A stretch of 64,000 bases of DNA, from assembly GCA_937958265.1 (NCBI GenBank), contig CALGNX010000005.1, positions 62,001-126,000 of the forward strand. Reading direction: 5' to 3'. Under the pieces are notes generated by a model. It was given only the letters and a program-made list of their open reading frames with translations, made no database searches and was not told the origin of the DNA. Source of the DNA: an uncultured Algibacter sp. (lineage in GTDB: Bacteria > Bacteroidota > Bacteroidia > Flavobacteriales > Flavobacteriaceae). The position numbers were made by a program, and so were the translations under genes. Positions 28,277 to 51,289 of the stretch are shown in pieces; positions within the stretch are counted from its first letter, which is position 1; every line of letters starts with the position of its first letter.

Positions 28277-29593
28277 ATGAATTTGTTTAATTTTTCCTTG
28301 CAAATAAACGGCTTCCCCATTAAGAAGGCTAACCACGTATTAAAAACTATTGAAAACTTAAGTGAGAATGATTTTGATGCCTATGTGGAAAACAAAAAAA
28401 ATGAGATTTTTAATTACCACTTAAAATTTAATACGTTTTACAAATCGTTCGCTAATAATGCGCATAGTTCCGTTTGGAGTAGCATTCCTATATTAACAAA
28501 AAAAGATTTACAAAAACCGCTTAAAAAAAGGCTTTCTAAACATTATAAAATAAAAGATGTTTACGTTAATAACACATCTGGGGCGTCTGGAATTCCTTTA
28601 ATTTTTGCAAAAAACAAATTTTGTCATGCCTTAACTTGGGCCATTATTCAAAACCGTTTTGGTTGGTATAATATCGATTTTAATCGTGCTAAACAAGCAC
28701 GTTTTTATGGCATTCCTTTAGATACCAAAAACAATTTTAAAGAGCGCTTAAAAGATAAATTAAGTAATCGTATTCGGTTTTCGGTTTTCGACTTAAGCGA
28801 TACGGCTTTAAAAAAAATATTGGAAACTTTCAAATCTAAGCCCTTTAACTATATCAATGGCTATACCAGCGCTATTGTGCAGTTTGCCAAATTTTTAAAA
28901 AATGAAAATATTATTTTAAAAACCATTTGTCCTACTCTAAAAGCATGTATGGTTACTTCAGAAATGGTTTTTGAAGATGATAAAACCCTTATGGCAAGCC
29001 AATTTGGGATACCGATAATTAATGAATATGGCGCATCCGAATTGGATATTATTGCCTTTGAAAATCCAAAAGGCGATTGGCAGGTTAATAGCGCATCAAT
29101 ATTTGTAGAAATTATAGATAATAACAACCATGTTTTGCCTTACGGAGAACCCGGACGCATTGTAATTACATCGCTTTACAATAAAGCACACCCCTTTATT
29201 AGATACGATATTGGAGATATTGGCATACTATCAAAAAAAAGTACTACTAAAAACCCTATTCTTAAAACCTTAATTGGCCGAAATAACGACATTGCTATTT
29301 TACCTAGTGGAAAGAAAACTGCTGGTTTAACCTTTTATTATATTACTAAACGTATTATTGAAGATGGTACTAATGTGAAAACCTTTGTAATTGAACAGAC
29401 AAAACTAAATACTTTTAAAATTATTTATGTGAGTTCCAAACTACTTTCTGAAAGGAAAAAGAAAATAATTACTGCCGAAATGGAAAAATATCTTGAAAAG
29501 GGACTTACAGTTATATTTGAAAAACAGGTACATTTAATAAGAACTAAACATGGCAAATTGAAACAGTTTACATCTTATACTCCCAAAACATGA
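28277..29593 (+). CDS. PaaK/CapK-like adenylate-forming enzyme, polysaccharide locus
   Basis: 438 residues from the ATG at 28277; an in-frame TTG 7 codons upstream is less likely. Related to phenylacetate-CoA ligases: VNNTSGASGIPLIF is the phosphate-binding loop, NEYGASELDIIAFE the adenylate motif, and RYDIGDIG the hinge Asp region. CapK-type members occur in capsule clusters and probably activate an acyl or amino group donor for glycan decoration. First gene of the plus-strand trio; its stop overlaps the wecB start (ATGA). Confidence 0.83.
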   Translation: MNLFNFSLQINGFPIKKANHVLKTIENLSENDFDAYVENKKNEIFNYHLKFNTFYKSFANNAHSSVWSSIPILTKKDLQKPLKKRLSKHYKIKDVYVNNTSGASGIPLIFAKNKFCHALTWAIIQNRFGWYNIDFNRAKQARFYGIPLDTKNNFKERLKDKLSNRIRFSVFDLSDTALKKILETFKSKPFNYINGYTSAIVQFAKFLKNENIILKTICPTLKACMVTSEMVFEDDKTLMASQFGIPIINEYGASELDIIAFENPKGDWQVNSASIFVEIIDNNNHVLPYGEPGRIVITSLYNKAHPFIRYDIGDIGILSKKSTTKNPILKTLIGRNNDIAILPSGKKTAGLTFYYITKRIIEDGTNVKTFVIEQTKLNTFKIIYVSSKLLSERKKKIITAEMEKYLEKGLTVIFEKQVHLIRTKHGKLKQFTSYTPKT

Positions 29594-30681
29594 AAATTAC
29601 AATAGTTGCTGGCGCAAGACCAAATTTCATGAAAATCGCTCCTATAATTGAAGCCATTCTTAATAAGAAAAAAGAAGGTTTTAATATTAATTATAGGCTT
29701 GTGCATACAGGACAACACTATGATAAGAATTTAAGTAGCACTTTTTTTGAAGAACTTAACATCCCACTTCCTGACAAGAATTTAGAAGTAAGAAGTGGTA
29801 CCCCAGCCCAACAAACTGGAGCCATTATGATTGGTTTTGAAAATGAACTAAAACAAAATCCGTGTGATTTAGTTATAGTTGTTGGCGATGTTACCTCAAC
29901 TATGGCTTGCACCATTGTTGCTAAAAAAGCACATATTAAGGTGGCTCATGTTGAAGCCGGAATACGATCTGGCGATATAAAAATGCCTGAAGAAATTAAT
30001 AGAATTGTTACAGATAGTTTAACCGATTATTTCTTTACAACATCCAAGCATGCCAACGAAAATTTAATGAGGTTAGGCGTTCCCACCGAAAAAATATTTT
30101 TTGTAGGTAATGTTATGATTGATACGTTGCGCAAAAATGAAAATAGATTTAAACAGCCAGACCTTTGGAACGCTTTACATTTATCTGAAAAAAAATACAT
30201 GGTTATAACATTACATAGGCCAGGCAATGTGGATGAAGCACAACAATTACAACAACTCATTATCCAAATTGCAACATTAGGAAATAAATACCCTATTATT
30301 TTTCCTGTTCATCCCAGAACGCAGAAACTTTTAAGTCGTTTAAATTTAAATTTTGAAAATCTACATTATGTAAAACCTATGGGGTATTTAGAGTTTAATT
30401 ACTTAGTAAAAAATGCTTTTGCCGTAATTACAGATTCCGGCGGTATTACTGAGGAAACTACAGTTATGAATGTGCCTTGTATAACACTTCGAGATAACAC
30501 AGAACGCCCTGAAACTTGTGTTATAGGAACAAATATGCTTGTTGGTAGCGACCCCTTAAAAATAGAAAAAGCCTTTAATATTTTAGTTTCAAATCGTTGG
30601 AAAACAGGCTCAATTCCGCAATTATGGGATGGGCAGGCAGCAAAACGAATTGTAAACCATTTAGCTTCTATTTATAGTTAA
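29590..30681 (+). CDS. wecB: UDP-N-acetylglucosamine 2-epimerase (non-hydrolysing)
   Basis: 363 residues, GT-B fold. Residues used by WecB are present: Asp in VVGDVTST, Glu in HVEAGIRSGD, the PEEINRIVTD motif (Glu and Arg) and His in TLHRPGN. The usual HRREN motif reads HRPGN. The enzyme interconverts UDP-GlcNAc and UDP-ManNAc. It overlaps the CapK-like gene by 4 bases and is followed by a glycosyltransferase, so UDP-ManNAc or a derivative may be a residue of this glycan. It lacks anything pointing to the hydrolysing NeuC form, but that cannot be excluded without alignment. Confidence 0.92.
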   Translation: MKITIVAGARPNFMKIAPIIEAILNKKKEGFNINYRLVHTGQHYDKNLSSTFFEELNIPLPDKNLEVRSGTPAQQTGAIMIGFENELKQNPCDLVIVVGDVTSTMACTIVAKKAHIKVAHVEAGIRSGDIKMPEEINRIVTDSLTDYFFTTSKHANENLMRLGVPTEKIFFVGNVMIDTLRKNENRFKQPDLWNALHLSEKKYMVITLHRPGNVDEAQQLQQLIIQIATLGNKYPIIFPVHPRTQKLLSRLNLNFENLHYVKPMGYLEFNYLVKNAFAVITDSGGITEETTVMNVPCITLRDNTERPETCVIGTNMLVGSDPLKIEKAFNILVSNRWKTGSIPQLWDGQAAKRIVNHLASIYS

Positions 30682-34290: not shown

Positions 34291-35187
34291 TTAATCTAGA
34301 TACATTTTTTGTAATGTATGCTCAATGGTATTTTCGTTAGAAAGGTCACCTAAACTAGCCATTAATTTTTTTGTTGAGCCCTTAAGCATTTTAATTTCAT
34401 TTTTTCTTACAAAATCAGGATTTACCGTTACCTTAATTTTATACTTGGCCAAACGATTCATTTCACTAATTATATGCTTAATGTTTATTGCCGTGCCACT
34501 ACAGACATTAATTATTTCAGACTTTATGTTAGACGTTAAAAGACGTGTATAACATGCTACTACATAATCAACATCGTTAAACTCTCTGTATACGTCTATA
34601 TTCCCTAAGGCAATTTCCTTATAATTTTTCTTATAATGAGAAACAATTTTTGGAACTAAGAAATGTGATTCTTGGCCTGCACCAGTATAATTAAAGGGAC
34701 GAGTTATAATTATATTTTGATTATCAAAATACAATTTTGACATATTTTCCATAACCAATTTACTATTGCCGTAGTGGTTTACGGGTTGCGGACACATTGT
34801 TTCGTCCAACTCGCCCTCAATATTTCCGTAAACCGCAGCACTACTAGCAATTAAGATTTTTTTAGGTGTATAATCTAGTCTGTTTATAGCCTCTAAAAGA
34901 TTTGTTGTTCCAAGAATATTTACATTGTATATCTTTAATTTGGCCTCTGATGCTACGAATGAAATGGCTGCTAAATGAACTATGTAAGCTGGCTTAATAT
35001 CTTTTAAAATCGCGTACAAAGCATCTTCTTCAAGAATATTACAATTAAAGTGGTTCGAACTCTTTGGTTCTTTTAAGGTCGTTCCAAAAACTTCGAACCC
35101 TTTTTCGGTAAGGTATTTTTCTAGATATATTCCTGTAAACCCAGAAATACCAGTAATAAATACGCGTTCTTTAAAAACTGCCTCCAT
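34291..35187 (-). CDS. GDP-6-deoxy-D-mannose reductase-like SDR
   Basis: 298 residues from the ATG at 35187; a start 5 codons upstream is also possible. Rossmann motif [11 protein letters not shown], catalytic YGNSK, and [10 protein letters not shown] as in Rmd. Following gmd with a 17-base overlap, it probably reduces GDP-4-dehydro-6-deoxy-D-mannose to GDP-D-rhamnose. An NDP-sugar epimerase/reductase giving another 6-deoxysugar is an alternative. Confidence 0.82.
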
Positions 35188-36205
35188 TTTGATTTCTTTC
35201 AATATCCTTTTTAACCATCATGTCGCACAATTCTTCGAGCGTTGTTTTTGGTTTCCAATTTAATTTATCGTTCGCTTTAGATGCGTCTCCAATTAATAAA
35301 TCTACTTCTGCTGGACGATAAAACTTAGGGTTTACTTTAATTAACTCTTTTCCTGTTTTATCATCAAAACCAATTTCCTTTTCGCCTTTACCTTTCCAAG
35401 TAATATCTACTTCTATTGCCTTAAAAGCTAACGATACAAAGTCTCGTACGGTTTGTGTTTTATTGGTTGCCAAAACAAAGGTTCCTGGCTCATCAATTTG
35501 TAACATCCTATACATGCCATCCACATATTCTTTAGCGTATCCCCAGTCTCTCTTAGCATCCATATTACCAAGTTCTAATAGATCTTGTTTACCCAAATGA
35601 ATTTTTGCTACTGCATCTGTTATTTTTCTTGTAACAAACTCTTTTCCTCTTAAAGGAGACTCATGATTAAACAAAATACCACTGGTAGCAAACATGTTAT
35701 AAGACTCTTGATAATTAAGTGTAGCCCAATGCGCAAATACTTTTGCTACCCCGTAAGGACTGCGAGGATGAAAAGGCGTGTCTTCGCTTTGCGGTATAGC
35801 ATGTACTTTACCAAACATTTCTGAAGTTGATGCTTGATAAAATTTAATTTTAGGGTTAATGCTTCGTATCGCTTCTAATAAATTCATGGCGCCAATACCA
35901 GTAATTTCAGCTGTTGCTATGGGCTGGGTAAAAGATACACCTACAAAACTTTGAGCAGCTAAATTATAAATTTCATCAGGCTCAACTTCAGAAATAATTC
36001 TGTATGCGCTTGATAAATCTATAAGATCATATTCCAACAATGTTAAGTTCGGATGCTTATCAACTCCTAATTCTTCAATTCTCCAAAAATTAGTTGAGCT
36101 TGTTCTTCTATATGTACCAAAAACATGATAACCCTTGTCTAGTAGAAGCTCTGCTAAATATGCAGCATCTTGGCCAGTAATACCAGTTATTATAGCTTTT
36201 TTCAT
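35171..36205 (-). CDS. gmd: GDP-mannose 4,6-dehydratase
   Basis: 344 residues with [16 protein letters not shown] at the N-terminus, catalytic Thr/Ser region [15 protein letters not shown], and the [17 protein letters not shown] and [16 protein letters not shown] motifs specific to GMD. It makes GDP-4-keto-6-deoxymannose, the branch point to GDP-fucose and GDP-rhamnose. Coupled to the Rmd-like gene by overlap. Confidence 0.97.
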
Positions 36206-39444: not shown

Positions 39445-40506
39445 TTACTTTTTTATAAATTTATACCCCGTGTTTATAAATTTCTCCTCTACGAATTTAA
39501 AACCAATTATTGAAACTAGCGTGGTTAATAACAAGCTTGATAAAGTAAATAATACATTATTAATAAAAGTTGGTTCCAAGTTTAATTGTCCAACCACATG
39601 AATAACTATCACATGAAATAAGTAAAACGAATAGCTTATTTTACCAAAATAAGCCAGTAAATTACTTTCTATTTTAAACTTACTTGTTAATAGTAAAAAT
39701 AGCACAAATGCAATTAAATAGCTTAAGAAGTACCTATACCAAACTTCATTGTGACCATAATTTTTATTGTATGCTAAAAATGATATTGCTAACATAACTA
39801 AACAAAAAACGATAGGGAATACTTTAACAAATACTTTATTTTTTGATGTAATAAAACTAAACTGACCACTAGTATATAATAGGTATGATTTAAACACATA
39901 ACCGTAAAACATCAAGGATAGGGCTAAAAACAATGCTATTGGCAACTTAATTTGTAAATAGAATCTAATTACTGATGCTAAAAATGCGATTATTAAAAAG
40001 CCAATTGATGATAGAATAACACCAGTAAATTTATGTAAAAAGTTAGCCAAAAATAATATTACACAGAAACCATAAAAAATAAGTTCAATTTGAAGTGTCC
40101 AATATATACCGATAATGCTCTTGGCTCCCAATATTTCGGGAACCATAGTAATGTTTGCTAAAATAGTTTTAATACTCGGGGGGCTGTTTAACAAAAAAAC
40201 TACACCCAAAAGTATCGAAACCCAAAATACGGGATACAAGCGAAAAAACCTTTTGATTAAAAAATTTCTAACAGTAGTATTTTTTTTTAAACTAAATGGG
40301 ATTAAAAAACCACTGAGCATAAAAAAAAGTACAACACCGATTTTACCAAAATCTAAAAAATCAACAGTCCAGAAAGTTAATTTTTCAAAAAATGGATTTA
40401 TACCTTCTTTTCTTCTCAAATAAAGAACAACGTGCTGGACAAAAACTAAGATAGCAGCAATACCTCTAATCGAGTCTAGATAATTAAGTCTTTTTTTATT
40501 TGACAT
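39445..40506 (-). CDS. Acyltransferase family 3 (OafA-like)
   Basis: 353 residues, ten or so membrane helices. The N-terminal NYLDSIRGIAAILVFVQH carries the family's conserved Arg and His; FFMLSGFLIPFSLKK and YWTLQIELIFYG follow. It transfers acetyl or another acyl group to a sugar of the glycan. It overlaps the following putative sialyltransferase gene by 11 bases. Confidence 0.93.
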   Translation of the reverse strand: MSNKKRLNYLDSIRGIAAILVFVQHVVLYLRRKEGINPFFEKLTFWTVDFLDFGKIGVVLFFMLSGFLIPFSLKKNTTVRNFLIKRFFRLYPVFWVSILLGVVFLLNSPPSIKTILANITMVPEILGAKSIIGIYWTLQIELIFYGFCVILFLANFLHKFTGVILSSIGFLIIAFLASVIRFYLQIKLPIALFLALSLMFYGYVFKSYLLYTSGQFSFITSKNKVFVKVFPIVFCLVMLAISFLAYNKNYGHNEVWYRYFLSYLIAFVLFLLLTSKFKIESNLLAYFGKISYSFYLFHVIVIHVVGQLNLEPTFINNVLFTLSSLLLTTLVSIIGFKFVEEKFINTGYKFIKK

Positions 40507-41419
40507 TTTTTAAACTATTAACAACATTAATTGGTAGGAAACTTAAATTATTTAATAGCTTAAAAATATGTGTTAAACCGAAATATATAGGTATATAAAA
40601 TGATTTTCTGTCTTTATTTATATTTAACAGTGTTGTTGAAAAAGCACTAAGATAATATTTATAACAATTATTTACACAGTAAGATTCAGCATCTGTATCT
40701 ATATTAAGAACACTTACAGATGTACCCTTATACTTCGACAAATCCTCCCGAGGGTGTGGCAAATAAACAACTTTAGTATTAAAAAACTTATCTAAAAATA
40801 ACAATCTATTTATATATACTTCACGACTAATATACCCGTCTTCCACTAAGGGTTGACCAATAAAAAGAATTTCATCAAAAACAGTAATAGCCTTACATTC
40901 CTCGCTTTTACTTTGATATACTATATTTTTCTTGTCGAACCTATTTTTTATAGTTAGACTATCTCTTTTGTATGTTTCCTTTAAAATACCTTTTCTATAA
41001 AATCCAAAAAGAAACTTTATAGCGTTTTTAATTATGGTTTTTTTTGTACCAGAACCAATATAATGCCCTAGTCCGTCTTCCCATAACTCAATTTTTATTT
41101 TTTCAGATAAACAAAAATCAATTAAAAATTTATCGTAAGGTTTGTTATCTGTAAAAAGTATTAAACAATTAAAATCTAATTTTATTAGCTTCAATTTTAA
41201 TTGTTTATATACCTTTCGATTATGCGCATAAACTTGGAATAAATTCCAAGACATTTTTTCCTCCTCAAAAATAATTACTTCAAAATCCTTAAAATAATTA
41301 TTTAAAATAGGTATTAATTTGCTAGATCTACTACTAAGTAAAAAGAACTTAGGTGAAATTCCATTTTGATGTAAAAGCTCTATATGGTAAGTGCTAATAA
41401 CCTTAGCTATAATTCTCAT
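40496..41419 (-). CDS. Putative GT52-like sialyltransferase
   Basis: 307 residues from the ATG at 41419, fixed by an ATGA overlap with the upstream wzy-like gene. No signal peptide or membrane helix. Three short motifs occur in the order and spacing of bacterial sialyl-/polysialyltransferases (GT38/GT52/GT80 type): Glu-Asp-Gly at 114-116 (LWEDGLGHY), His-Pro at 222-223 (YLPHPRED) and Ser-Thr at 261-262 (SAFSTTLLN). The rest has no strong resemblance I know. The neighbouring neuA-phosphatase and neuB genes make a CMP-activated nonulosonic acid, so a transferase using it should be in this locus and this is the best candidate. The family call is inference. Confidence 0.62.
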   Translation of the reverse strand: MRIIAKVISTYHIELLHQNGISPKFFLLSSRSSKLIPILNNYFKDFEVIIFEEEKMSWNLFQVYAHNRKVYKQLKLKLIKLDFNCLILFTDNKPYDKFLIDFCLSEKIKIELWEDGLGHYIGSGTKKTIIKNAIKFLFGFYRKGILKETYKRDSLTIKNRFDKKNIVYQSKSEECKAITVFDEILFIGQPLVEDGYISREVYINRLLFLDKFFNTKVVYLPHPREDLSKYKGTSVSVLNIDTDAESYCVNNCYKYYLSAFSTTLLNINKDRKSFYIPIYFGLTHIFKLLNNLSFLPINVVNSLKNVK

Positions 41420-42669
41420 GTTAATATTTCGTATTTCCTGTAAAGTATACCCATATAACACCAAACAAACAAATAATGAAAGTTACTTTGCGTCATTCCA
41501 ATGAGGATTATAAATATGAGAAAATACTTTAATTCGCGTCTATTTTGAATCAAATATAGTACAAATAAAACTAAAATAAAAAAGCCCAAATATCCTATTG
41601 AAATAAGAATATTTACCAACATTATAGAAGGCCGATCAGTCCCTATACCTAAACCGAAAATAGGCATTTTAGATAACGCTTCTAAAGGTAGGGTTATACC
41701 ATGTCTTAATCGCTCTCTAAAAGACCCTGCTTTAACGGTAATTATATCCTGTACTAAATCATTAAATAAAAAAGCTAAAACAAATACAACGATGGACAGA
41801 ATAAAAATCCATATCATCATTTTTAAGCCTTTTTTATTATATACCCTCGTTAAAATAAATAAATAAACAACCCCTAAATACCCCGTAAAAGATGTAGATA
41901 TAAGCAATAAAAATCCAGATATATACAAGACTATTTTTTGCGTTTTTGAAAACTTTACTTTTAATAAAAAAAGTGTTAGGTAGGTAGTTGTTAGATAATA
42001 GCCGTAAATTGAAGTTTCGTTCTGTACAGAATTTATTCTTTTTACATTATTAAATATAGCTTGAAAGGCAGTTACCGAGTACTTTCCAAATTCATCAATA
42101 CTATAAAAGTAATGCATATAAATATCATAATTATTACTGTAATATAAAACGAGTTGCAAAACAGCAATAGTATTAACAACTATAAGCCCTGTAAACAATG
42201 CTTTAACTAACAATACTTTATTAGCTTTTATAGAGCTAACCACGACAAAAACTAAAGCACCTAATACAACATATAATAACTGTGTAAAATTAGTTAAGGA
42301 CACGGCTGTCTTAACAACTGTTTTGGACCATTTTCCTGCACGTTTAGAATCTTCGACTTCCCATACCTTAACTGGCTCAAAATCAAATAACCTAACTACA
42401 AGGCTAATAGATAATACAAAAATGAGCATCATTAAGTAAACCAGTGGCTTCTTTGCAGCTCTTTTATTACTTATTAGGAATACTAAAAGAAGTAGAATAG
42501 CTACGTATTCTGGAATTTTTAAATGAAATGTAATTTGTTGAACTTCTAATAATGATACCGTATAAAAGGAAGAAAATACGACTAAAGTATAAAGTAAACT
42601 ATCTATAACAGTATGTCTTTTTATATATATACCAAATAGTATGACGATATTTATAACTAAAAACCACAC
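41416..42669 (-). CDS. Wzy-like polysaccharide polymerase
   Basis: 417 residues with about 12 membrane helices and a loop containing FGLGIGTDRPSIM before the last helices, typical of O-antigen polymerases. The start is GTG at 42669, overlapping the flippase stop as TAGTG. Placed between the flippase and the putative sialyltransferase, it is the likelier repeat-unit polymerase of the two candidates in the locus. Confidence 0.78.
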   Translation of the reverse strand: MWFLVINIVILFGIYIKRHTVIDSLLYTLVVFSSFYTVSLLEVQQITFHLKIPEYVAILLLLVFLISNKRAAKKPLVYLMMLIFVLSISLVVRLFDFEPVKVWEVEDSKRAGKWSKTVVKTAVSLTNFTQLLYVVLGALVFVVVSSIKANKVLLVKALFTGLIVVNTIAVLQLVLYYSNNYDIYMHYFYSIDEFGKYSVTAFQAIFNNVKRINSVQNETSIYGYYLTTTYLTLFLLKVKFSKTQKIVLYISGFLLLISTSFTGYLGVVYLFILTRVYNKKGLKMMIWIFILSIVVFVLAFLFNDLVQDIITVKAGSFRERLRHGITLPLEALSKMPIFGLGIGTDRPSIMLVNILISIGYLGFFILVLFVLYLIQNRRELKYFLIFIILIGMTQSNFHYLFVWCYMGILYRKYEILT

Positions 42670-43826
42670 TATACTTTACTTTCTTTTAAATTAAATAAAA
42701 ACATGAAATATAAACTCCCTCGTGTTATAAAAAATACAGGAGCGAAAACAAAAAAATCATATGTAAAAAATAAAGAAATACATATAGTCAATATATTTAA
42801 AATAAGCATCCTATTAATATTTACATACTTTATAATAAACGATTTTGAAATAAAAAAGATAATTGAAAAAAATACAACAATAAAACTTAAGCCAGAAAAC
42901 TCATCTAATAACATGTTTAAAGGGTAAAATATTTTGATCAAAAAAGGTGCTAAAAAAGTAAAAATTAAGCCCGATAACAAACCAATTAGAATTATAGCAA
43001 CAATAATTTTTATCTTAATCTTTACAAAAACAGAGATATCCACTTTTGTTAAAATACTCAATAAACTAGAAGATGTTACCAAAACTATTGGATTAACACC
43101 TATTAGAAAAATTGACACTATTTGGTAGTAATTAACATAGTTATCAAAAAAGAAATGCTCAATAACAAACATGTCCATGCGTTGAACCAAAGCAAAAGAC
43201 AAATAAATGAACACAAACTTTAAAATATTTAAGTCGTTTTCCTGTTTTATTTTTGCTGTGTTAAACCCTAATTGAATATTGCCTTTATACAAGACAAAAA
43301 AAGCAATAAGTTCAGATATTAACAATAAGGTAATAAAAATATCAATACTACTTATATCAAAAAATAAAGTTAATACTAATAAAACAAGGTAAGGTATTAG
43401 TCGAACAAAAACATAAAAATAATTTTTCTTGAAGATTAAAAAATTAAAATACACTTTCAACTGCAGTGTATTGGCTGAAAAGACAACCATATATGCTCCT
43501 AATAAAAAACTTTTAAGAACAGAAAATTCCTGTACAAAAAATATTATTGCAGTTAAAAATGAGAACAAACTAAGTTTGAACAAAAATTTATACTTATTTT
43601 TTTGAAGATCTGTTTTAGTTACTAATCGAACATAGTAGTCGGCTAATGAAGACCCAAAAGTATAAATTAAAAAATCTATTGTAATTAATAAAAAGCTTAT
43701 TTTTCCGAAAAGTTCAGGAGAGTGCTTCTGTATTAATGGAAAAAAAACTATTTGTCTTATTATAGAAAAAATAAAGGCAGATCCAGCATATACAAACGAA
43801 CCTTTGATAAATGTTTTAATTGACAT
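42669..43826 (-). CDS. Wzx-like polysaccharide flippase
   Basis: 385 residues, about 12 membrane helices, with the N-terminal FIKGSFVYAGSAFIFSIIRQIVFF of RfbX/Wzx transporters. A little short for the family. It probably flips the lipid-linked repeat unit to the periplasm. The ATG overlaps the end of the neuA fusion gene by 11 bases. Confidence 0.82.
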   Translation of the reverse strand: MSIKTFIKGSFVYAGSAFIFSIIRQIVFFPLIQKHSPELFGKISFLLITIDFLIYTFGSSLADYYVRLVTKTDLQKNKYKFLFKLSLFSFLTAIIFFVQEFSVLKSFLLGAYMVVFSANTLQLKVYFNFLIFKKNYFYVFVRLIPYLVLLVLTLFFDISSIDIFITLLLISELIAFFVLYKGNIQLGFNTAKIKQENDLNILKFVFIYLSFALVQRMDMFVIEHFFFDNYVNYYQIVSIFLIGVNPIVLVTSSSLLSILTKVDISVFVKIKIKIIVAIILIGLLSGLIFTFLAPFLIKIFYPLNMLLDEFSGLSFIVVFFSIIFFISKSFIIKYVNINRMLILNILTICISLFFTYDFFVFAPVFFITRGSLYFMFLFNLKESKV

Positions 43827-44979
43827 ATATATTGATCAAGCGTTCAGCAAATTCTCTAAAAACTCCCGTACCACCTTTTTGTTCTAGGACTGCTATACTA
43901 TCAATATTTTTTATTTTTTTAATGGCATCTTTTGGACAAGCAGCAAAACCGACTTGAGATAATAGTTCAAAACAATTAACATCATCACCGATATAGGCTA
44001 CTTCACTCAAATCAATATTTTCTTTTGCACAAATTTCAATCGCAGCCTCTAATTTTCCCCCATGTTTTTTTGATTGAAAAAGATAATCAGCCTTAACTTT
44101 CTTTGCTCTATTTGAAACAATTTTAGTGTTTTCAGAAGTTATTATACCTGTTAAAAAACCATTTTCTCTTAACAATTGAAACCCCATGCCGTCTCTCGTG
44201 TTAAACTTTTTCAATTCATCTCCGGCTTCTGTGTAATACATCCCTGCGTCTGTTAAAACACCATCTACATCCGTTAACACTAGCTTAATTTTTCTGCTTT
44301 CTTTAGGTATGTTAATAAAGCGTTTCATCAAAGCTTCAGCTATAATCCAATCTTCAGGTTCATCTATTTCAACGGCGGTATATTCTTCCATTAAAGAAAT
44401 ACCTATATTGCCACTTAATCTATTTCTGTATTTCAATATGTTTTCAACCGAGTTAATATAAAAAGCCCCATTTTCCATTAACATTCCAGAAAAATCCTGC
44501 CTTCTTGGCCTATTATTGTATTCGTAATTAAGAGGAACACCCTTTTTATCCCAAAAAAAACGTTTTGTCTCGACACAAGACAATACGCTGTCATACTCAG
44601 TATCATTAATTATTTTAATACCTTTTTCTATATCGTTTGTAGTCAATAAAGGAGAAGTAGCTTGAATTAAAATAAATCGATCTTCATCGTTCAAGCTACT
44701 TTTCTTTATATACTCTAGCATAACACTTTCAGTGGAAGAATGATCTTGCGCATTTAAATCGTCTCTTTTATACAGACTAACTTTGCTAAACGCTAAGTTT
44801 TTAACTACATTTTCTATTTCTAAACTATCTGTAGCTACTATTATTTCGTCGATATCTTCTACTTTATTTACTGCATTCAAAACCCAATAAATTAGTGGTT
44901 TTCCACAAAATAATTTAAGGTTTTTTAATGGAATAGATTTACTACCGCCTCTTACAGGTATGAATGCAATTTGCCTCAT
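43816..44979 (-). CDS. CMP-nonulosonate cytidylyltransferase fused to KdsC-type HAD phosphatase
   Basis: 387 residues in two domains. Residues 1-225 are an acylneuraminate cytidylyltransferase (NeuA): VRGGSKSIPLKN nucleotide loop, ATDSLEIENV, QATSPL. Residues 230-387 are a HAD phosphatase of the KdsC/KDN-9-phosphatase group: LTDVDGVLTDAG with both catalytic Asp, TSEN and YIGDDVNCFELL. The phosphatase residues are intact, unlike the vertebrate CMAS C-terminal domain as I recall it. One protein could therefore dephosphorylate a 9-phosphate sugar and activate it with CTP. It follows neuB after 3 bases. The exact acid (Neu5Ac, KDN or other) is unknown. Confidence 0.9.
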   Translation of the reverse strand: MRQIAFIPVRGGSKSIPLKNLKLFCGKPLIYWVLNAVNKVEDIDEIIVATDSLEIENVVKNLAFSKVSLYKRDDLNAQDHSSTESVMLEYIKKSSLNDEDRFILIQATSPLLTTNDIEKGIKIINDTEYDSVLSCVETKRFFWDKKGVPLNYEYNNRPRRQDFSGMLMENGAFYINSVENILKYRNRLSGNIGISLMEEYTAVEIDEPEDWIIAEALMKRFINIPKESRKIKLVLTDVDGVLTDAGMYYTEAGDELKKFNTRDGMGFQLLRENGFLTGIITSENTKIVSNRAKKVKADYLFQSKKHGGKLEAAIEICAKENIDLSEVAYIGDDVNCFELLSQVGFAACPKDAIKKIKNIDSIAVLEQKGGTGVFREFAERLINIYVN

Positions 44980-44982
44980 AAA

Positions 44983-45855
44983 CTATTTTTTTCTAAATTT
45001 CAATTTATCTCTTTGTACTTTTTCTATATCTAGAATTTCTGAGCCTTTAGGGTTTAAAGCATCATAAGTAGCTTCAAGGTCTCTACATAATTTTTTTAAC
45101 CCATTAGGTTCTAAAGATGCTGCATGATCTGTTCCTTTCCACGTTCTATCAATAGTGAAATGTCTCTCTACCCATGTTGCTCCTAGGGCTACAGCGGCAT
45201 TATCTATAGCTATTCCTAAATGATGTCCAGAAAAACCAACCTCTTTAACACGGTTTCCATATTCTTTCTTCAGCCTTACTATTTCCAATAAGCAAACATC
45301 CTTAAATGGTACGGGATAACCTGAAGTACATGAATATATTATCAGTCTATTTTTAGCTTGATCCTTTTTTTCAAAAAATTCAATTATCTCTCTTTCTTCT
45401 TCTTGGTTGGTCATACCAAAGGATAAATGAACTTCTCCTTTATAATCGTCTCTCAGGACCTTTAACATTTCAAAATGATTATTACACGCGGAAGGTACTT
45501 TTAAAAGTCCGGGGTTAAACGTTATCATTTCTTTTGCAGAAGTAACATCCCAAACCGAGGTAGAATACTCTAAACCTATCGCATCACAATGCTCTTTTAA
45601 TTTACGGTGTTGATCTACATTAAATTCTAAAAATTCTCTATGTGCCCCGTATGTATCACCGTAAGAATTCGATTGATTTGGGTGAGGCGCCTTATATTGC
45701 TCTTCTGTTAACAACTCTTTATTATTCCGCTTCTGGAACTTAGCAACATCTGAACCACATTCTTTGGCTTTATTTAACAAATCGATAGCTATATTAAAGT
45801 CGCCTTTATGGTTGCATCCAATTTCAGCTATTACTTTTGGTTTTTTAAATTTCAT
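44983..45855 (-). CDS. N-acetylneuraminate synthase family protein lacking the SAF domain
   Basis: 290 residues. The NeuB TIM barrel is present (VIAEIGCNHKGDFNIAIDLL, KFQKRNN, SACNNHFEMLKVL, SGYPVPFKDVCLLEI, FSGHHLGIAID, ERHFTIDRTWKGTDHAASLEP). The protein stops at the linker where the usual C-terminal antifreeze-like SAF domain (about 60 residues) would begin. It should condense phosphoenolpyruvate with an N-acylmannosamine or mannose, or the 6-phosphate form. With the fused phosphatase next door, the 6-phosphate substrate and a 9-phosphate product are likely. It overlaps rmlD by 4 bases. Confidence 0.9.
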   Translation of the reverse strand: MKFKKPKVIAEIGCNHKGDFNIAIDLLNKAKECGSDVAKFQKRNNKELLTEEQYKAPHPNQSNSYGDTYGAHREFLEFNVDQHRKLKEHCDAIGLEYSTSVWDVTSAKEMITFNPGLLKVPSACNNHFEMLKVLRDDYKGEVHLSFGMTNQEEEREIIEFFEKKDQAKNRLIIYSCTSGYPVPFKDVCLLEIVRLKKEYGNRVKEVGFSGHHLGIAIDNAAVALGATWVERHFTIDRTWKGTDHAASLEPNGLKKLCRDLEATYDALNPKGSEILDIEKVQRDKLKFRKK

Positions 45856-46640
45856 TTTATATTTTTTAAGGTACTGTTTTTGGGTCTTATGGCAAATGTA
45901 TGATATTTTTCACTTTTAACAAGATTTGTTTGACGTAACAATTTGTTTTCTTGCAAGATTTTAACTGCAAAACTATACCATGTCATGATGTCATTATCGG
46001 AAAAATGAATCAATCCAAAATTATCACTTTCATTACCGATTAAAGAAATAATATATTTTGCCAAATTTTCGGCATTTGTTGGGCAACTTTTTTGCCTGTT
46101 AGTTACGAATAATGATTGCCCTTCGCTAGCTTTCTTTAATATACTTCTATAAAAATTATTACCATATTTTTTACTGTATAACCAAGAGGTTCTTATAATA
46201 AAATATTTGGTCATTATAGATTGAATGTACCCTTCGCCAAGCAATTTAGACTTTCCGTACTCATTTAACGGATTCGCTCTATCCGTTACTAAATAAGGCT
46301 CTTCCTTTTCTCCGTCAAAAACATAGTCTGTAGAGATATGTATTAATGTAATATCTTTTTCATAACATTTTTGAGCTAAGTTATTTACTCCATTGGCGTT
46401 TATTTTAAATGCAATTTCAGGCGTCTTTTCCGCCTGTTCTACATTAGTGTATGCCGCACAATTTATACAATAATCATAACTGTTTCTATAAAAAAAAGCT
46501 AAAAGTTGCTCTTTATCTGTGATATCTAAATCTTCCTTAGAAACAAAATAAAAATCTAAATCAATTGTGTTTTTTTTGTAAAGCTCCTTAATTGTTCGCC
46601 CTAATTGGCCATTGGCACCTGTTACCAAAATTTTTTTCAT
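45852..46640 (-). CDS. rmlD: dTDP-4-dehydrorhamnose reductase (C-terminally short)
   Basis: 262 residues with TGANGQLGRTI, STDYVFDG, catalytic YGKSK and RTSWLYS as in RmlD/RfbD. Family members usually run 280-300 residues. Here the protein ends at RPKNSTLKNIK, about where a final 20-30 residue segment should start, and the TGA overlaps the neuB ATG. It makes dTDP-L-rhamnose with NADPH. Whether the short form is active is open; the truncation coincides with the junction to the nonulosonate genes. Confidence 0.9.
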   Translation of the reverse strand: MKKILVTGANGQLGRTIKELYKKNTIDLDFYFVSKEDLDITDKEQLLAFFYRNSYDYCINCAAYTNVEQAEKTPEIAFKINANGVNNLAQKCYEKDITLIHISTDYVFDGEKEEPYLVTDRANPLNEYGKSKLLGEGYIQSIMTKYFIIRTSWLYSKKYGNNFYRSILKKASEGQSLFVTNRQKSCPTNAENLAKYIISLIGNESDNFGLIHFSDNDIMTWYSFAVKILQENKLLRQTNLVKSEKYHTFAIRPKNSTLKNIK

Positions 46641-47185
46641 AATTCAAAACAGTCTTCAAAAGTTAATAGTTGCGTATCTTTATCAGATATAATGATTTCT
46701 TCTTCATTAAAGTTCCAATCAATATTTAAATATTTATCATTGAATAGAATACCTGATTCCGAAGCTTTATTATAAAAATTATCACACTTGTAAGAGAAAA
46801 TAGTATTATCCATTAACACTATAAAACCATGAGCAAAACCTTTGGGTACATAAAGCTGTTTTTTGTCTATATCATCTAAAAGTATTGAAAAATAGTTACC
46901 AAATGTTTTGGAATCCTTTCTAATATCTACGCAAACATCTAGAACTTTTCCGCTAATAACTTGAACTAATTTAGCTTGTGCATTATTACCTTTTTGAAAA
47001 TGTAAGCCTCTTAAAACACCTCTAGATGATTTTGATAAATTGTCTTGAACAAACCGTGTTTTAATACCTGTTTTATCGAAAAATACTTGTTCATTAAAAG
47101 TTTCAAGAAAATAACCACGTTCATCATTAAAAACTTTCGGCGTAAGTACATAACACCCCTTTAGATATGTTTCTTCAACTACCAT
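46637..47185 (-). CDS. rmlC: dTDP-4-dehydrorhamnose 3,5-epimerase
   Basis: 182 residues, normal length. Cupin core with FNDERGYFLETF, FVQDNLSKSSRGVLRGLHFQ (catalytic His) and the PKGFAHGFIVL motif. Converts dTDP-4-keto-6-deoxyglucose to the 4-keto-rhamnose form. It overlaps rmlD by 4 bases and follows rmlA after 4 bases. Confidence 0.97.
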   Translation of the reverse strand: MVVEETYLKGCYVLTPKVFNDERGYFLETFNEQVFFDKTGIKTRFVQDNLSKSSRGVLRGLHFQKGNNAQAKLVQVISGKVLDVCVDIRKDSKTFGNYFSILLDDIDKKQLYVPKGFAHGFIVLMDNTIFSYKCDNFYNKASESGILFNDKYLNIDWNFNEEEIIISDKDTQLLTFEDCFEL

Positions 47186-47189
47186 ACTA

Positions 47190-48047
47190 TTAAATTATAC
47201 GCTTCAAATAATCTCCATAACCACTTTTAAGAAGTGACTGAGCTAAATTTATTAATTGTGATTTATTTATAAAGCCCATCTTGTAAGCTACTTCTTCAAT
47301 ACACCCTATTTTCAAACCTTGGCGTTCTTCGATTACTTGTACAAATTGAGAAGCTTGCATTAATGATGAAAATGTTCCTGTATCCAGCCACGCTGTACCT
47401 TTATCCAAAATTTGGACATTCAAGTTACCGCGATGTAAAAACACCTTATTAACATCTGTAATTTCTAACTCTCCGCGTTTACTTGGTTTTATATTCTTTG
47501 CTACTTCTATTACAGAATTATCATAAAAATAAATACCGGGTACTGCAAAATTAGATTTAGGTTTTTCTGGTTTTTCTTCAATGGAAATCGCTTTACTATT
47601 TTTATCAAATTCCACAACACCATAACGCATTGGATCTTGCACGTGATAAGCAAAAATAACCCCACCTTTAGGGTTTATATTATTTTGGAGAGTCTTGTTT
47701 AATCCTGACCCATAAAATATATTATCGCCTAAAATTAAAGCCACACTGTCCTTTCCTATAAATTTTTCTCCAATAATAAAAGCTTCCGCTAAGCCTTTTG
47801 GTTCATCCTGAACAGCGAAATCAAACACACAGCCATAATCTGTACCATTACCTAAAAGTAGCTTAAACCGCGGCAAATCGATTGAAGTTGATATGATTAA
47901 TATATCTCTAATACCGGCAGATAAAAGTGTAGTTAAAGGATAATAAATCATTGGCTTATCATAAACAGGCATTAATTGTTTACTTACAACTTTTGTAAGT
48001 GGATAAAGCCTAGTTCCAGACCCGCCTGCTAATATAATTCCTTTCAT
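47190..48047 (-). CDS. rmlA: Glucose-1-phosphate thymidylyltransferase
   Basis: 285 residues, normal length. [18 protein letters not shown] and [16 protein letters not shown] are the nucleotide- and sugar-binding signatures, with LGDNIFYG and EEKPEKPKS. Makes dTDP-glucose from dTTP and glucose-1-phosphate, the first step to dTDP-rhamnose. Confidence 0.98.
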
Positions 48048-48061
48048 TACTAATTCTTATC

Positions 48062-49105
48062 TTAGTTATATTGGTTTTTGAAATAAGATTGATATTGCCC
48101 ACTCGTTACATTATCTAACCATTCTTCATTGGTTAAATACCATTGAATTGTTTTTTCTAATCCCTGCTGAAAGGTAACAGAAGGCTCCCAACCTAAATCT
48201 TTCCTTATTTTTGAAGCATCGATGGCGTATCGTAAATCATGCCCAGGACGATCTTTTACAAAGGTAATTAAACGTTCGGATGTGTTTTTTGGGCGCTTTA
48301 ATTTAATATCCATTTGTTCGCATAATAACTTTACCAAATCAATATTTTTCCACTCGTTAATACCACCTATATTATACATTTCGCCATTTAAACCTTTATG
48401 AAACACTACATCTATAGCTATCGCATGGTCTTTTACATACAACCAATCTCTTGTGTAATTACCATCGCCATAAACAGGCAATGGTTTATTATTTATAATA
48501 TTATTTATAAATAAAGGTATTAATTTTTCAGGAAACTGATTCTGCCCATAATTATTTGAACAATTTGTTATAACGTATGGTAACTTATATGTTTCGCCAT
48601 AAGCCCTTACAAAATGATCTGAGCTTGCTTTAGATGCTGCATATGGGGAATTAGGATCGTAAGCTGTTTTTTCTGTAAACAAACCTGTTTCTCCTAAGGA
48701 GCCATAAACCTCATCGGTACTAACGTGGTAAAATCGCTTATTTTCAAAATTATGGCTCCAACATTTTTTAAAGGCATTTAAAAGAATCATTGTACCAATA
48801 ACATTAGTTTTCACAAAAGCTAAAGGCTCCTTAATAGAACGATCCACATGCGACTCCGCAGCTAAATGTATTACACCATCGAATTTATACGTGTTAAAAA
48901 GGCTGTTTACAAAATTTTCATCTGTTATATCTCCTTTAATAAAAGTATAATTCGGCTTATTTACAATATCATTCAAATTTTCCAAATTTCCAGCATAAGT
49001 TAATGCGTCCAAATTATAAATATGATAATTTGGGTATTTTTCAACAAACAATCGAACCACATGCGAACCAATAAACCCTGCGCCACCAGTTATTAAAATA
49101 GTCAT
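48062..49105 (-). CDS. rmlB: dTDP-glucose 4,6-dehydratase
   Basis: 347 residues. TGGAGFIGSHVVRLF, HLAAESHVDRSI, STDEVYGSLGE, YAASKASSDH and TNCSNNYGQNQFPEKLIP are RmlB hallmarks. Produces dTDP-4-keto-6-deoxyglucose. First of the rmlBACD block, directly after the Wzz-like pair. Confidence 0.98.
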   Translation of the reverse strand: MTILITGGAGFIGSHVVRLFVEKYPNYHIYNLDALTYAGNLENLNDIVNKPNYTFIKGDITDENFVNSLFNTYKFDGVIHLAAESHVDRSIKEPLAFVKTNVIGTMILLNAFKKCWSHNFENKRFYHVSTDEVYGSLGETGLFTEKTAYDPNSPYAASKASSDHFVRAYGETYKLPYVITNCSNNYGQNQFPEKLIPLFINNIINNKPLPVYGDGNYTRDWLYVKDHAIAIDVVFHKGLNGEMYNIGGINEWKNIDLVKLLCEQMDIKLKRPKNTSERLITFVKDRPGHDLRYAIDASKIRKDLGWEPSVTFQQGLEKTIQWYLTNEEWLDNVTSGQYQSYFKNQYN

Positions 49106-49108
49106 ATT

Positions 49109-50179
49109 TTAAACTTTACCTTTATACTGTTCCATAAATTTATACACGCGAGAGCCTAGTAAAAAACATAACGTAGCCAACATAAAACAAATACCGAAAT
49201 ACACTTTATCACTTAACCCTAAGCCAAACAGATATTTTCTATTATATACCGAACCACTATCCTGCTTACCGGAAACAATTTCTACTATTTTCTCTTTGTC
49301 AGCTATTCTCCTTTCAATCTTTACAATCTCGCTACTCAACTCAATATCATTTAAATATAAATCATATTCTTTAGTTTTAGACTTTTTACTACTTGCTTCA
49401 AAACTTATTCCTATTTCTGTTCCTTGTGCATTTTGGCTTTCTTCTAAAACCTTCCTATAAGTGGTCTGCAAAACCTGCGAACTACTTAAAGCTTTTTCTA
49501 ATGCTAATTTCTTGCTATTTAATTCTGCCAAATCCTTAGCCTGTTCACTTAAAAAATATTGGTTACCATTTAATAAACTCACTATTTTTTTGAACACCAA
49601 ATTAAAATTATTTCTTTCTTTAGCAATAATAATAAGCTTCTGAAATTGGTAGCTAGGCTCTTTATAGCGTAACACAAAATCATCATAACTTACTTTGGAA
49701 GCTATAGTCGTATCTAAGGTTTTTCTATAATCATTAAATTCTTTAAAATGCTCATTTTCAATAATTACAGATTGGATATCAAATTTTAATATCACTGCCG
49801 CCTGTTTAGCACTAATACCAAGCACATTACCCAATTGTAAGGTATCTTCCTGCGAAAGTAAATCGTTGAAATAATCGACAGAATTATACAAATCTTCCCC
49901 CGTATTATAGTTTTGTTTTATTGTAATATGCGATCTGTATACAGGGTCTGCAGTTTTTTCTTTGTATATACCATAAGAAATACCCAATGCTACTGAAATT
50001 AAAAGCTTGATACCATGCTTTTTTACAAAAAAAACACACCATATTAACGCTAAAAAAATGTGATTTAATAAATTACCTATAAACCTAAAAAAACTATAAA
50101 TTAAGTCACTTATAAGCATAAAAAGTTTTCCTAAATCTACTTCTTCAGACGAATGAGGTTCTGGTGAGTTTTTACTCAT
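49109..50179 (-). CDS. Wzz-like chain-length/polysaccharide transport protein (paralogue 2)
   Basis: 356 residues. Membrane helices near 50-75 and 325-345 bracket a large periplasmic domain with a coiled coil (about 200-300), the topology of Wzz-type proteins. The N-terminus (SSEEVDLGKLFMLISDLI) matches the neighbouring paralogue, and the whole layout is shared. It lacks the cytoplasmic kinase of BY-kinases. It probably sets chain length or assists export of the locus polysaccharide. Confidence 0.75.
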   Translation of the reverse strand: MSKNSPEPHSSEEVDLGKLFMLISDLIYSFFRFIGNLLNHIFLALIWCVFFVKKHGIKLLISVALGISYGIYKEKTADPVYRSHITIKQNYNTGEDLYNSVDYFNDLLSQEDTLQLGNVLGISAKQAAVILKFDIQSVIIENEHFKEFNDYRKTLDTTIASKVSYDDFVLRYKEPSYQFQKLIIIAKERNNFNLVFKKIVSLLNGNQYFLSEQAKDLAELNSKKLALEKALSSSQVLQTTYRKVLEESQNAQGTEIGISFEASSKKSKTKEYDLYLNDIELSSEIVKIERRIADKEKIVEIVSGKQDSGSVYNRKYLFGLGLSDKVYFGICFMLATLCFLLGSRVYKFMEQYKGKV

Positions 50180-50236: not shown

Positions 50237-51289
50237 TTAACTCTTTTCTTGATAAGCGTTAAGATAATTATTTAACGAAAATAATCCGAAAAATAATAAG
50301 CTTAAAGTTAGTAGCAATGCAGGGATACGAAACTTGTAACTTTTTAAAACTTGAAGATCTTTAAGTCCTTTATCTGGGAAATCGGAAATAACATTTATAA
50401 TATCAAGCTTATTTACACGCATTATATTAAGTTCTAGCACCTTTGATTGTATCTCTTCCTTTTTATTAATGAGTATAAATTCTTTGTTTTCCTTATTAAC
50501 ATTATCTCCTAAACTTATATTGGTTCCTGCAACAGGACGATCGACTTGCTTAAGCATTATATTTTTATAAAGTGTTTGTAAGGAGTCGATTTCTGCCAAT
50601 TGCTTGGTATAAAAACTAGTTTTTAAAGCTATGTTTATATTATTAATTTCTTTTTGTTGATTAAAATAAACATTACGTTTAATAGCCTCTATTATAACAG
50701 GTTCTATTTTTTTTGCTACACTGTTATCTGTAGCTGTAACGGTTAATAAATGGAAGCGTAAACTAAGGGTATTAAAATTATTTAAAAATTTTTCTGGATT
50801 TGTAGATTTTACTGTAATAGTATCTAAGTCTTTAACAAAATTATCAAACAACTTTAACTTTTGATTTTTATCTGCATAAGCATTAACTTTAAATTCCTTT
50901 AGAGACCTAGCCTCTTTTTTAGAGATACCTAAAATTTCTGATAAGGCTACCGAATCTTTAGCTTGTACTAATTCGTTATATACATGCATGTTTTTGTAAA
51001 GCTGTTCTACACTGTTAAAATTTGGCTCTACCAGCATAGTAGAAATATATTTAGGTCCTTCTACAATATCTGTAAAAATGCCGATTACAAAACCTACAAT
51101 TACAATAACTACAATTTTTACAAAATATTTTCTGATAAAAAGTAAAAATAAAATAACAAAATTAAAAAGCGATTTTAATGTGCTCCCTATAAAATTAAAA
51201 AGTCTATTAAAAGCATTTCCAATTAACTTAAATAATTGGCTTAAATCCACTTCTTCAGATTGCTTTGGTTGAGGCAAATCTTTACTCAT
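50237..51289 (-). CDS. Wzz-like chain-length/polysaccharide transport protein (paralogue 1)
   Basis: 350 residues with the same plan as the next gene: a short cytoplasmic start (QSEEVDLSQLFKLIGNAFN), one membrane helix (about 52-72), a long periplasmic helical domain and a final helix (about 325-345). The two are tandem paralogues separated by 57 bases. Both follow a DUF6909-like gene and precede rmlB, so they open the polysaccharide block on this strand. Confidence 0.75.
   Translation of the reverse strand: MSKDLPQPKQSEEVDLSQLFKLIGNAFNRLFNFIGSTLKSLFNFVILFLLFIRKYFVKIVVIVIVGFVIGIFTDIVEGPKYISTMLVEPNFNSVEQLYKNMHVYNELVQAKDSVALSEILGISKKEARSLKEFKVNAYADKNQKLKLFDNFVKDLDTITVKSTNPEKFLNNFNTLSLRFHLLTVTATDNSVAKKIEPVIIEAIKRNVYFNQQKEINNINIALKTSFYTKQLAEIDSLQTLYKNIMLKQVDRPVAGTNISLGDNVNKENKEFILINKKEEIQSKVLELNIMRVNKLDIINVISDFPDKGLKDLQVLKSYKFRIPALLLTLSLLFFGLFSLNNYLNAYQEKS

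Follow-up and report, generated by a model that had tools for sequence, protein, structure and literature searches.

The stretch analysed here (called the window, and meaning all 64,000 nucleotides of it) comes from an uncultured Algibacter sp. of the Flavobacteriaceae, contig CALGNX010000005.1 of assembly GCA_937958265.1. Our subject is a pair of its genes, separated by 3 nucleotides, one encoding a NeuA-type cytidylyltransferase fused to a HAD phosphatase and the other a NeuB-family synthase that has no SAF domain. We think that together they probably serve the synthesis of KDN (2-keto-3-deoxynononic acid) through a phosphorylated intermediate. The features in question are:

43816..44979, minus strand: NeuA-type cytidylyltransferase with a C-terminal HAD domain of the KDN-9-phosphate phosphatase type, a single protein of 387 residues (domain searches, AlphaFold2 model, Foldseek)
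44347..44979, minus strand: its NeuA-type domain, residues 1-211 approximately (PF02348, Foldseek)
43831..44289, minus strand: its HAD domain, residues 231-383 approximately, with D237, D239, T281, E283, R291, K294, K309, D332 and D333 (profile match, alignment to the phosphatase BT1713, tree)
44983..45855, minus strand: NeuB-family synthase without SAF, 290 residues (Pfam; AlphaFold2 mean predicted local distance difference test, pLDDT, 93.9 and predicted template modelling score, pTM, 0.90)

An earlier note, made from the letters alone, had described a cytidylyltransferase with a complete C-terminal HAD phosphatase, its DxD and GDD motifs intact, next to a NeuB that stops before SAF. Both parts of this description are borne out. 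CTP_transf_3 (PF02348) covers residues 4-209 of the fusion in a Pfam search (E = 8.2e-24), and a KdsC-type HAD spans residues 231-382, where TIGR01670 scores 121.7 bits, above its cut-off of 106.95. The HAD motifs fall at D237/D239 (DxD), K309 (the motif III lysine) and G331-D332-D333 (GDD). The neighbouring protein has NeuB (PF03102) as its sole Pfam match, with no SAF at E <= 0.001, nor even at E <= 0.1. The structure predictions that the note had proposed alongside these domain searches are confident for both proteins; the model of the fusion has a mean pLDDT of 94.8 and a pTM of 0.76, the relative placement of its two domains being unsettled.

When the synthase is aligned with NeuB of Neisseria meningitidis, Glu25, Gln55, Lys129, Tyr186, Ser213, His215 and Glu234 of the latter correspond to E11, Q41, K119, Y180, S209, H211 and E230, all of them invariant across 61 NeuBs taken from loci that carry the fusion, and Asn74 corresponds to N63, which is nearly invariant in the same set. 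Thr110, Phe112 and Asn184 are replaced by S100, W102 and S178. Arg314 has no counterpart in the window protein, since the SAF domain is missing. According to the accessible part of PMC6795526, this SAF residue helps to position the N-acetyl group of N-acetylmannosamine (ManNAc) in the meningococcal enzyme, and the R314A mutant is inactive. A synthase without SAF would make more sense if its substrate lacks the N-acetyl group.

The closest solved sequence to the HAD domain is BT1713 (PDB 3e81; E = 3e-40, with 49% identity in Foldseek). This phosphatase and its partners reportedly make up the KDN pathway of Bacteroides thetaiotaomicron, studied by Wang in 2008 and by Lu in 2009, and the latter work is said to have found that E56, R64 and K67 of BT1713 bind the sugar, E56 and K67 marking specificity for KDN-9-phosphate. 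E56A and E56A/K67A mutants of BT1713 are named in PDB titles, and the enzyme is reported to be an oligomer whose active sites lie between subunits. In our alignment the three residues correspond to E283, R291 and K294 of the fusion, and the catalytic positions D237, D239, T281, K309, D332 and D333 are retained. All nine checked positions are intact in 61 of the 65 fused proteins that we collected (see below), the window protein included; the four exceptions are two proteins of one genome, G219, with active-site losses (loci L053 and L054), L075 (D333 to E) and L121 from Desulfovibrio, where the E is an R and the K is a D. The HAD tree has 61 rows, for which 24 of the 65 fused proteins were chosen and one was dropped (the L054 domain, without the motif used for cutting, was left out). 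In it a starred set of 15 rows (97/92; bootstrap not settled) unites BT1713 with the window domain; the remaining members are 12 further fused domains and a single standalone one. The idea that the HAD domain is a misplaced KdsC was set aside, because the genome has its own KdsC-family phosphatase and KdsB, and in the tree the window domain is placed with BT1713 and away from that KdsC. PDB entries 3e81, 4hgq and 4hgr carry the molecule name "Acylneuraminate cytidylyltransferase" although the protein is a KDN-9-phosphate phosphatase, so that names in this family are unreliable.

It might be argued that the HAD domain is merely structural, an oligomer scaffold of the kind seen in vertebrate CMAS, and that dephosphorylation falls to another enzyme, for instance KdsC. 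In vertebrate CMAS a cytidylyltransferase is followed by a KdsC-like module, and the accessible text of PMC8636478 describes this C-terminal domain as tetrameric and without phosphatase activity in vitro, and its role as unclear. The source genome does have a KdsC-family phosphatase, and both fusions of G219 have lost residues of the HAD active site. Nevertheless, with the catalytic and binding positions intact in the window and in nearly all of the fused proteins, we consider a purely structural role very unlikely.

As for the NeuA domain, its top structure match in Foldseek is 9t4z, "PpNeuA CMP-Kdn synthetase" (36% identity), which we take to be the enzyme of Prymnesium parvum; mouse CMAS (1qwj) comes second, also at 36% identity, and N. 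meningitidis NeuA ranks after both. We favour KDN because the HAD domain groups with BT1713 and because this top match is a CMP-Kdn synthetase (CMP being cytidine monophosphate), although such a match does not in itself fix the specificity of the NeuA domain. The two genes would then be, with fair probability, a nonulosonate module of the phosphorylated kind that makes CMP-KDN by way of KDN-9-phosphate, and the fusion is most likely a bifunctional KDN-9-phosphatase/CMP-KDN synthetase whose partner is a synthase using mannose-6-phosphate. The SAF-less NeuB would join phosphoenolpyruvate and mannose-6-phosphate into KDN-9-phosphate. The HAD domain, to judge from its intact catalytic residues and its grouping with BT1713, would strip the 9-phosphate, and the NeuA half of the fusion, to judge from its family and nearest structure, would convert KDN and cytidine triphosphate into CMP-KDN. 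With both steps in one protein the sugar might be channelled, as the earlier note suggested. The activated sugar may finally enter a surface polysaccharide, perhaps through a PF07388 protein encoded in the same run of genes.

The content of the source genome (2,888,248 bases in 31 contigs, completeness score 99.83%) is consistent with this scheme. A SAF-bearing NeuB, a NeuC and a standalone NeuA doing the job elsewhere in the genome had been named in the earlier note as speaking against its proposal, drawn from a synthase next to a phosphatase, of a 9-phosphate route. A genome-wide profile search gives no match to SAF (as a control, the same search finds matches in 8 of 14 genomes). There is no clear NeuC among PF02350 proteins genome-wide, which amount to a WecB-like protein and one partial match of 33.2 bits. 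The PF02348 proteins are three, namely two fusions and one KdsB. The separate KdsC-family phosphatase lies above the cut-off of TIGR01670 and below that of the narrower NF007019. Neither NanE nor the N-acetylglucosamine 2-epimerase PF07221 has a match in the genome; the routes to ManNAc and ManNAc-6-phosphate thus appear absent among those sought (NeuC, NanE and PF07221; ManNAc kinase was not sought). A type I mannose-6-phosphate isomerase, ManA, is present on contig C8 (PF20511, 48.2 bits, cut-off 22), and Gmd is encoded in the window, so that mannose-6-phosphate should be available. The proposal of a 9-phosphate route gains support from all this, and the evidence favours KDN-9-phosphate over N-acetylneuraminic acid 9-phosphate (Neu5Ac-9-phosphate).

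The standard Neu5Ac route was set aside for this genome, SAF, NeuC, NanE and PF07221 being missing. An animal-like Neu5Ac route is a further reading: the synthase would act on ManNAc-6-phosphate, the HAD domain on Neu5Ac-9-phosphate, and the NeuA domain would yield CMP-Neu5Ac. The reaction types are alike, mouse CMAS takes second place, through its N-terminal domain, among the structures that match the NeuA domain, and PF07221 epimerases occur in 6 of 11 checked genomes (10 with the fusion, plus G190 with an unfused set). We think it unlikely all the same, given the gaps just listed in the source genome, the grouping of the HAD domain with a KDN-9-phosphate phosphatase and the lack of the SAF arginine that would position an N-acetyl group.

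The same genome carries a second fusion with its own SAF-less NeuB on contig C2 (locus L012, 5528-7573), in a separate run of glycan genes. The two pairs are 41% (fusions) and 61% (NeuBs) identical. The C2 pair belongs to a large clade common in Flavobacteriaceae, and the two HAD domains are placed in different clades of the HAD tree. The window copy has as nearest relatives, in both the NeuB and NeuA trees, those of G088 (of the same family as the C2 clade, Flavobacteriaceae) and of Flammeovirga, which suggests that it may have arrived together with its polysaccharide locus. A further reading is that the module makes another 9-phosphorylated 5-hydroxy nonulosonate, a different epimer built from another hexose-6-phosphate, and that the copies may make different sugars; the low identity, the different HAD clades and the two separate gene runs speak for it. 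We regard this as rather improbable, the nearest solved structures of both domains being named as KDN enzymes. Following the second NeuB, L012 (7580-8974) encodes a 464-residue protein with a weak likeness to BFO_1060-family glycosyltransferases (44 versus 200 bits); relatives of it are present in 35 of the 65 collected fused loci, and it is a candidate nonulosonate transferase.

The absence of SAF is a general property of these loci: Pfam finds none in 61 of 61 NeuBs from fused loci, one each from 61 of the 65 (there was none to take from L071, L095, L121 and L053, the last having just a truncated copy at its edge; L099 has a further NeuB, in which Pfam also finds no SAF, and this was left out of the count). 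To this we can add a wider Bacteroidota sample of 78 NeuB open reading frames (ORFs) from 77 loci, that is, 75 regions plus L057 and L058. The regions are about every second one among the matches listed for PF03102 in 198 Bacteroidota genomes, picked by hand, with G107 added as odd; ORFs shorter than 600 nucleotides were dropped and SAF was scored with a profile of our own seeded with three sequences. A HAD phosphatase lies within 3.5 kb of 34 of the 40 SAF-less NeuBs, versus one of the 38 that bear SAF, and this lone case is L248, a region added because it is odd. Conversely, a WecB-like epimerase occurs in the locus of 12 of the 38 SAF-bearing NeuBs and of none of the 40 SAF-less ones, in a search that had the window WecB-like protein as its sole query and may miss remote NeuCs. 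In the NeuB tree (82 rows; a 331-residue L099 protein is labelled SAF there although Pfam finds none) the SAF-less proteins form two strongly supported clades, clade I, with the window protein, and clade II, whose phosphatase is mostly separate.

Some arrangements seen along the way deserve mention for themselves. In genomes sampled from the Bacteroidota families f12, f16, f17 and f34, it is common to meet a clade II NeuB with a KdsC-type phosphatase encoded separately beside it (L202-L234 and others). L248 (3870-5615) encodes a 581-residue fusion of NeuA, NeuB and SAF, with a separate HAD gene near it, and L058 (8811-10238) encodes a different fusion again, a HAD phosphatase followed by a SAF-less NeuB in one protein of 475 residues.

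Two further loci provide a useful contrast. L108 and L111 encode standalone NeuAs without HAD that are nested among the fused NeuAs in the tree; their NeuBs bear SAF, a LegC-like aminotransferase (TIGR04181, below cut-off) is nearby, and no HAD phosphatase was found at either locus. Sugars that are deoxygenated at position 9 cannot carry a 9-phosphate and need no 9-phosphatase. These loci bear on the idea that the window module belongs to such a 9-deoxy pathway, for legionaminic (Leg) or pseudaminic (Pse) acid, the HAD domain being incidental. The NeuA and NeuB families do serve such routes too, and L108 and L111 place near relatives of the window NeuA in a Leg-like cluster. However, the chemistry leaves a 9-phosphatase without a substrate, the two Leg-like loci themselves combine a SAF-bearing NeuB with no HAD, and the two window genes that match LegB (TIGR04180) do so at 92.7 and 84.2 bits, far below the cut-off of 475 (the search for Leg/Pse genes did not extend to the other window genes or the whole genome). 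We consider this idea extremely improbable. Close to their SAF-bearing NeuBs, L108 (8341-9204) and L111 (8329-9186) also have AP_endonuc_2 (xylose-isomerase-like) genes, and this fold may be shared by the C-terminal domain of the Leptospira NeuB, which PMC3438082 interprets as a phosphatase.

The KDN-9-phosphate route is nonetheless not free of difficulties, and the following points weigh against it. The fusion reaches 172 bits with NF058599, the KDN-9-phosphate phosphatase model, below the curated cut-off of 180, and does not qualify as an equivalog of that family; the fusions of Bacteroides faecis (172.6), Flammeovirga (169.8) and contig C2 (137.3) also score below it. The NeuA domain resembles mouse CMAS, which acts on Neu5Ac, almost as closely as it does the CMP-Kdn synthetase, and the E/R/K residues can also be seen by eye in the clade II phosphatase of L057. 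Among the 11 checked genomes, 4 are without the PF20511 mannose-6-phosphate isomerase (other isomerase types were not sought), the PF07221 epimerase is found in more than half, the source genome not among them, and one, G069, has a NanE match above cut-off; given this variation, other members could differ in their sugar. Of the SAF-less NeuBs in the wider sample, six have no HAD inside 3.5 kb (L224, L227, L230, L235, L238 and L240; each of their genomes has a HAD match elsewhere). Finally, since the SAF-less NeuBs form two strong clades, the counts of the wider sample are not independent, and the association of SAF loss with a HAD phosphatase may largely reflect shared descent.

How widespread is the fusion? 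At least 65 fused loci were collected: the window, L012, 10 from a set of Bacteroidota genomes and 53 from a scan of named genomes that used the best 80 of 306 relatives. They include the two copies of the source genome, the two of G219, two contigs of one Phocaeicola genome and possibly one further organism counted twice. The fusion protein has matches in 250 of the 296 Bacteroidota genomes, mostly to its HAD part among the matches listed, and the top of that list is held by 12 full-length fusions in 10 genomes. Carriers in Bacteroidota include Bacteroides faecis, Phocaeicola, Prevotella, Paraprevotella, Flammeovirga and many Flavobacteriaceae; beyond this phylum we found Clostridium caldaquaticum and records of Thermosipho, Bdellovibrionales and Planctomycetales, several of the non-Bacteroidota records being metagenome bins that may be mis-binned. 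Such repeated occurrence shows that the arrangement is no product of chance. To call it unique would be an overstatement: further cases come from Bacteroidota and from a few records of other phyla, and vertebrate CMAS has its domains in the same order. A search with BT1713 as query gives matches in 72 of the 79 genomes sampled from one family at E <= 1e-25 (the best identity among the matches listed is 46%), and in none of 86 from another family at E <= 1e-40.

A single origin of the fusion, as a simple story, finds no support: in the NeuA tree the fused domains (24 of the 65 included) require 8 changes, the Desulfovibrio fusion L121 is KdsB/KdsC-like in both the HAD and NeuA trees, and G219 has two divergent fusions. 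The NeuA tree does not settle where mouse CMAS belongs, or whether the vertebrate enzyme arose within this clade. The G219 proteins, at L054 (9115-10338) and L053 (9378-10544), are NeuA-HAD fusions whose degraded phosphatase active site is reminiscent of vertebrate CMAS.

Around the two genes the window contains the following:

29590-30681: WecB-like epimerase (PF02350, profile search)
35171..36205, minus strand: Gmd, GDP-mannose 4,6-dehydratase (TIGR01472, 474.2 bits, cut-off 415)
40496..41464, minus strand: protein of the alpha-2,8-polysialyltransferase family PF07388, a candidate CMP-nonulosonate transferase (2e-9, 37.9 bits, cut-off 23.3)
42669..43826, minus strand: membrane-protein-like ORF, flippase-like by appearance (no Pfam match)
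45852..49105, minus strand: RmlD-type gene (PF04321, by Pfam) with rmlC, rmlA and rmlB lookalikes (by inspection only)

An NCBIfam search of the PF07388 protein gave no match. NeuB shares 4 nucleotides with the RmlD-type gene, and the fusion gene shares 11 at its 3' end with the membrane-protein-like ORF; given also the short gap between them, fusion and NeuB look like members of one polysaccharide transcription unit. Further along, 49109-50179 and 50237-51289 are adjacent genes with near-alike N-termini that resemble, by inspection, duplicated chain-length regulators.

For B. thetaiotaomicron a KDN route by way of a 9-phosphate is already known (PMC6200933 and other papers cite it). The window module resembles it in that synthase, phosphatase and cytidylyltransferase occur together, the HAD domain groups with BT1713 and the sugar-binding residues are the same; it differs in that BT1713 is a PDB chain of 164 residues without a cytidylyltransferase, whereas the window phosphatase is fused to one. 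With vertebrate CMAS it shares the domain order, and the mouse N-terminal domain (1qwj) lies close to it by structure, while the mouse C-terminal domain (3ewi) is matched too; unlike the vertebrate module, reported inactive, the HAD domain of the window keeps its catalytic residues and may well be active. A third comparison is with Prymnesium parvum, the presumed source of 9t4z, which heads the structure matches for the NeuA domain. Its pathway, from mannose-6-phosphate through Kdn-9-phosphate and Kdn to CMP-Kdn, is the one that we propose here, but the accessible part of PMC6200933 reports no phosphatase homologue in its transcripts and a CMP-Kdn synthetase of 273 residues with a C-terminal transmembrane segment, whereas the window synthetase carries a HAD domain. 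In Leptospira, too, an animal-like phosphorylated route was proposed from a gene fusion (PMC3438082, in its accessible part), there of NeuB with a C-terminal domain; that fusion joins a synthase to an endonuclease-like domain, whereas that of the window joins a cytidylyltransferase to a KdsC-type HAD. KDN in bacteria is not new either: in the accessible parts of these papers it is given as the main sialic acid of the Serratia KL1 and KL2 capsules (PMC12077157), is reported in an Accumulibacter enrichment (PMC8053191) and is tabulated as widespread in bacterial glycans (PMC7845648).

The window module is, then, a fused variant of a known pathway. A full-text literature search, with subscription papers mostly outside its coverage, showed among the papers listed no work on a NeuA-HAD fusion whose phosphatase functions, nor any on the bacterial fusion as an enzyme. 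Two things make the module interesting: to judge from its residues it is probably an active counterpart of the layout found in vertebrate CMAS, and it exemplifies the rule that connects SAF and phosphatase. It is tempting to go further and to see here a class of proteins, recurrent but not yet described, that combine KDN-9-phosphatase and CMP-KDN synthetase and work with SAF-less synthases, the active counterpart of a design of which the phosphatase module of vertebrate CMAS is the inactive form, and to read bacterial SAF loss and phosphatase gain as marks of a switch from free-sugar to sugar-phosphate chemistry, so that architecture alone predicts the route. We think this general view possible, if rather doubtful. 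If it is correct, a SAF-less NeuB accompanied by a BT1713-type phosphatase, whether fused or separate, would point to a phosphorylated nonulosonate route where automatic models fall short, as NF058599 does by 8 bits in the window, and would help to tell which bacteria make KDN, and how. The fusion would also let the phosphatase module that is inactive in vertebrate CMAS be studied in active form in a bacterial protein, and would be a bifunctional catalyst ready for use in CMP-KDN production.

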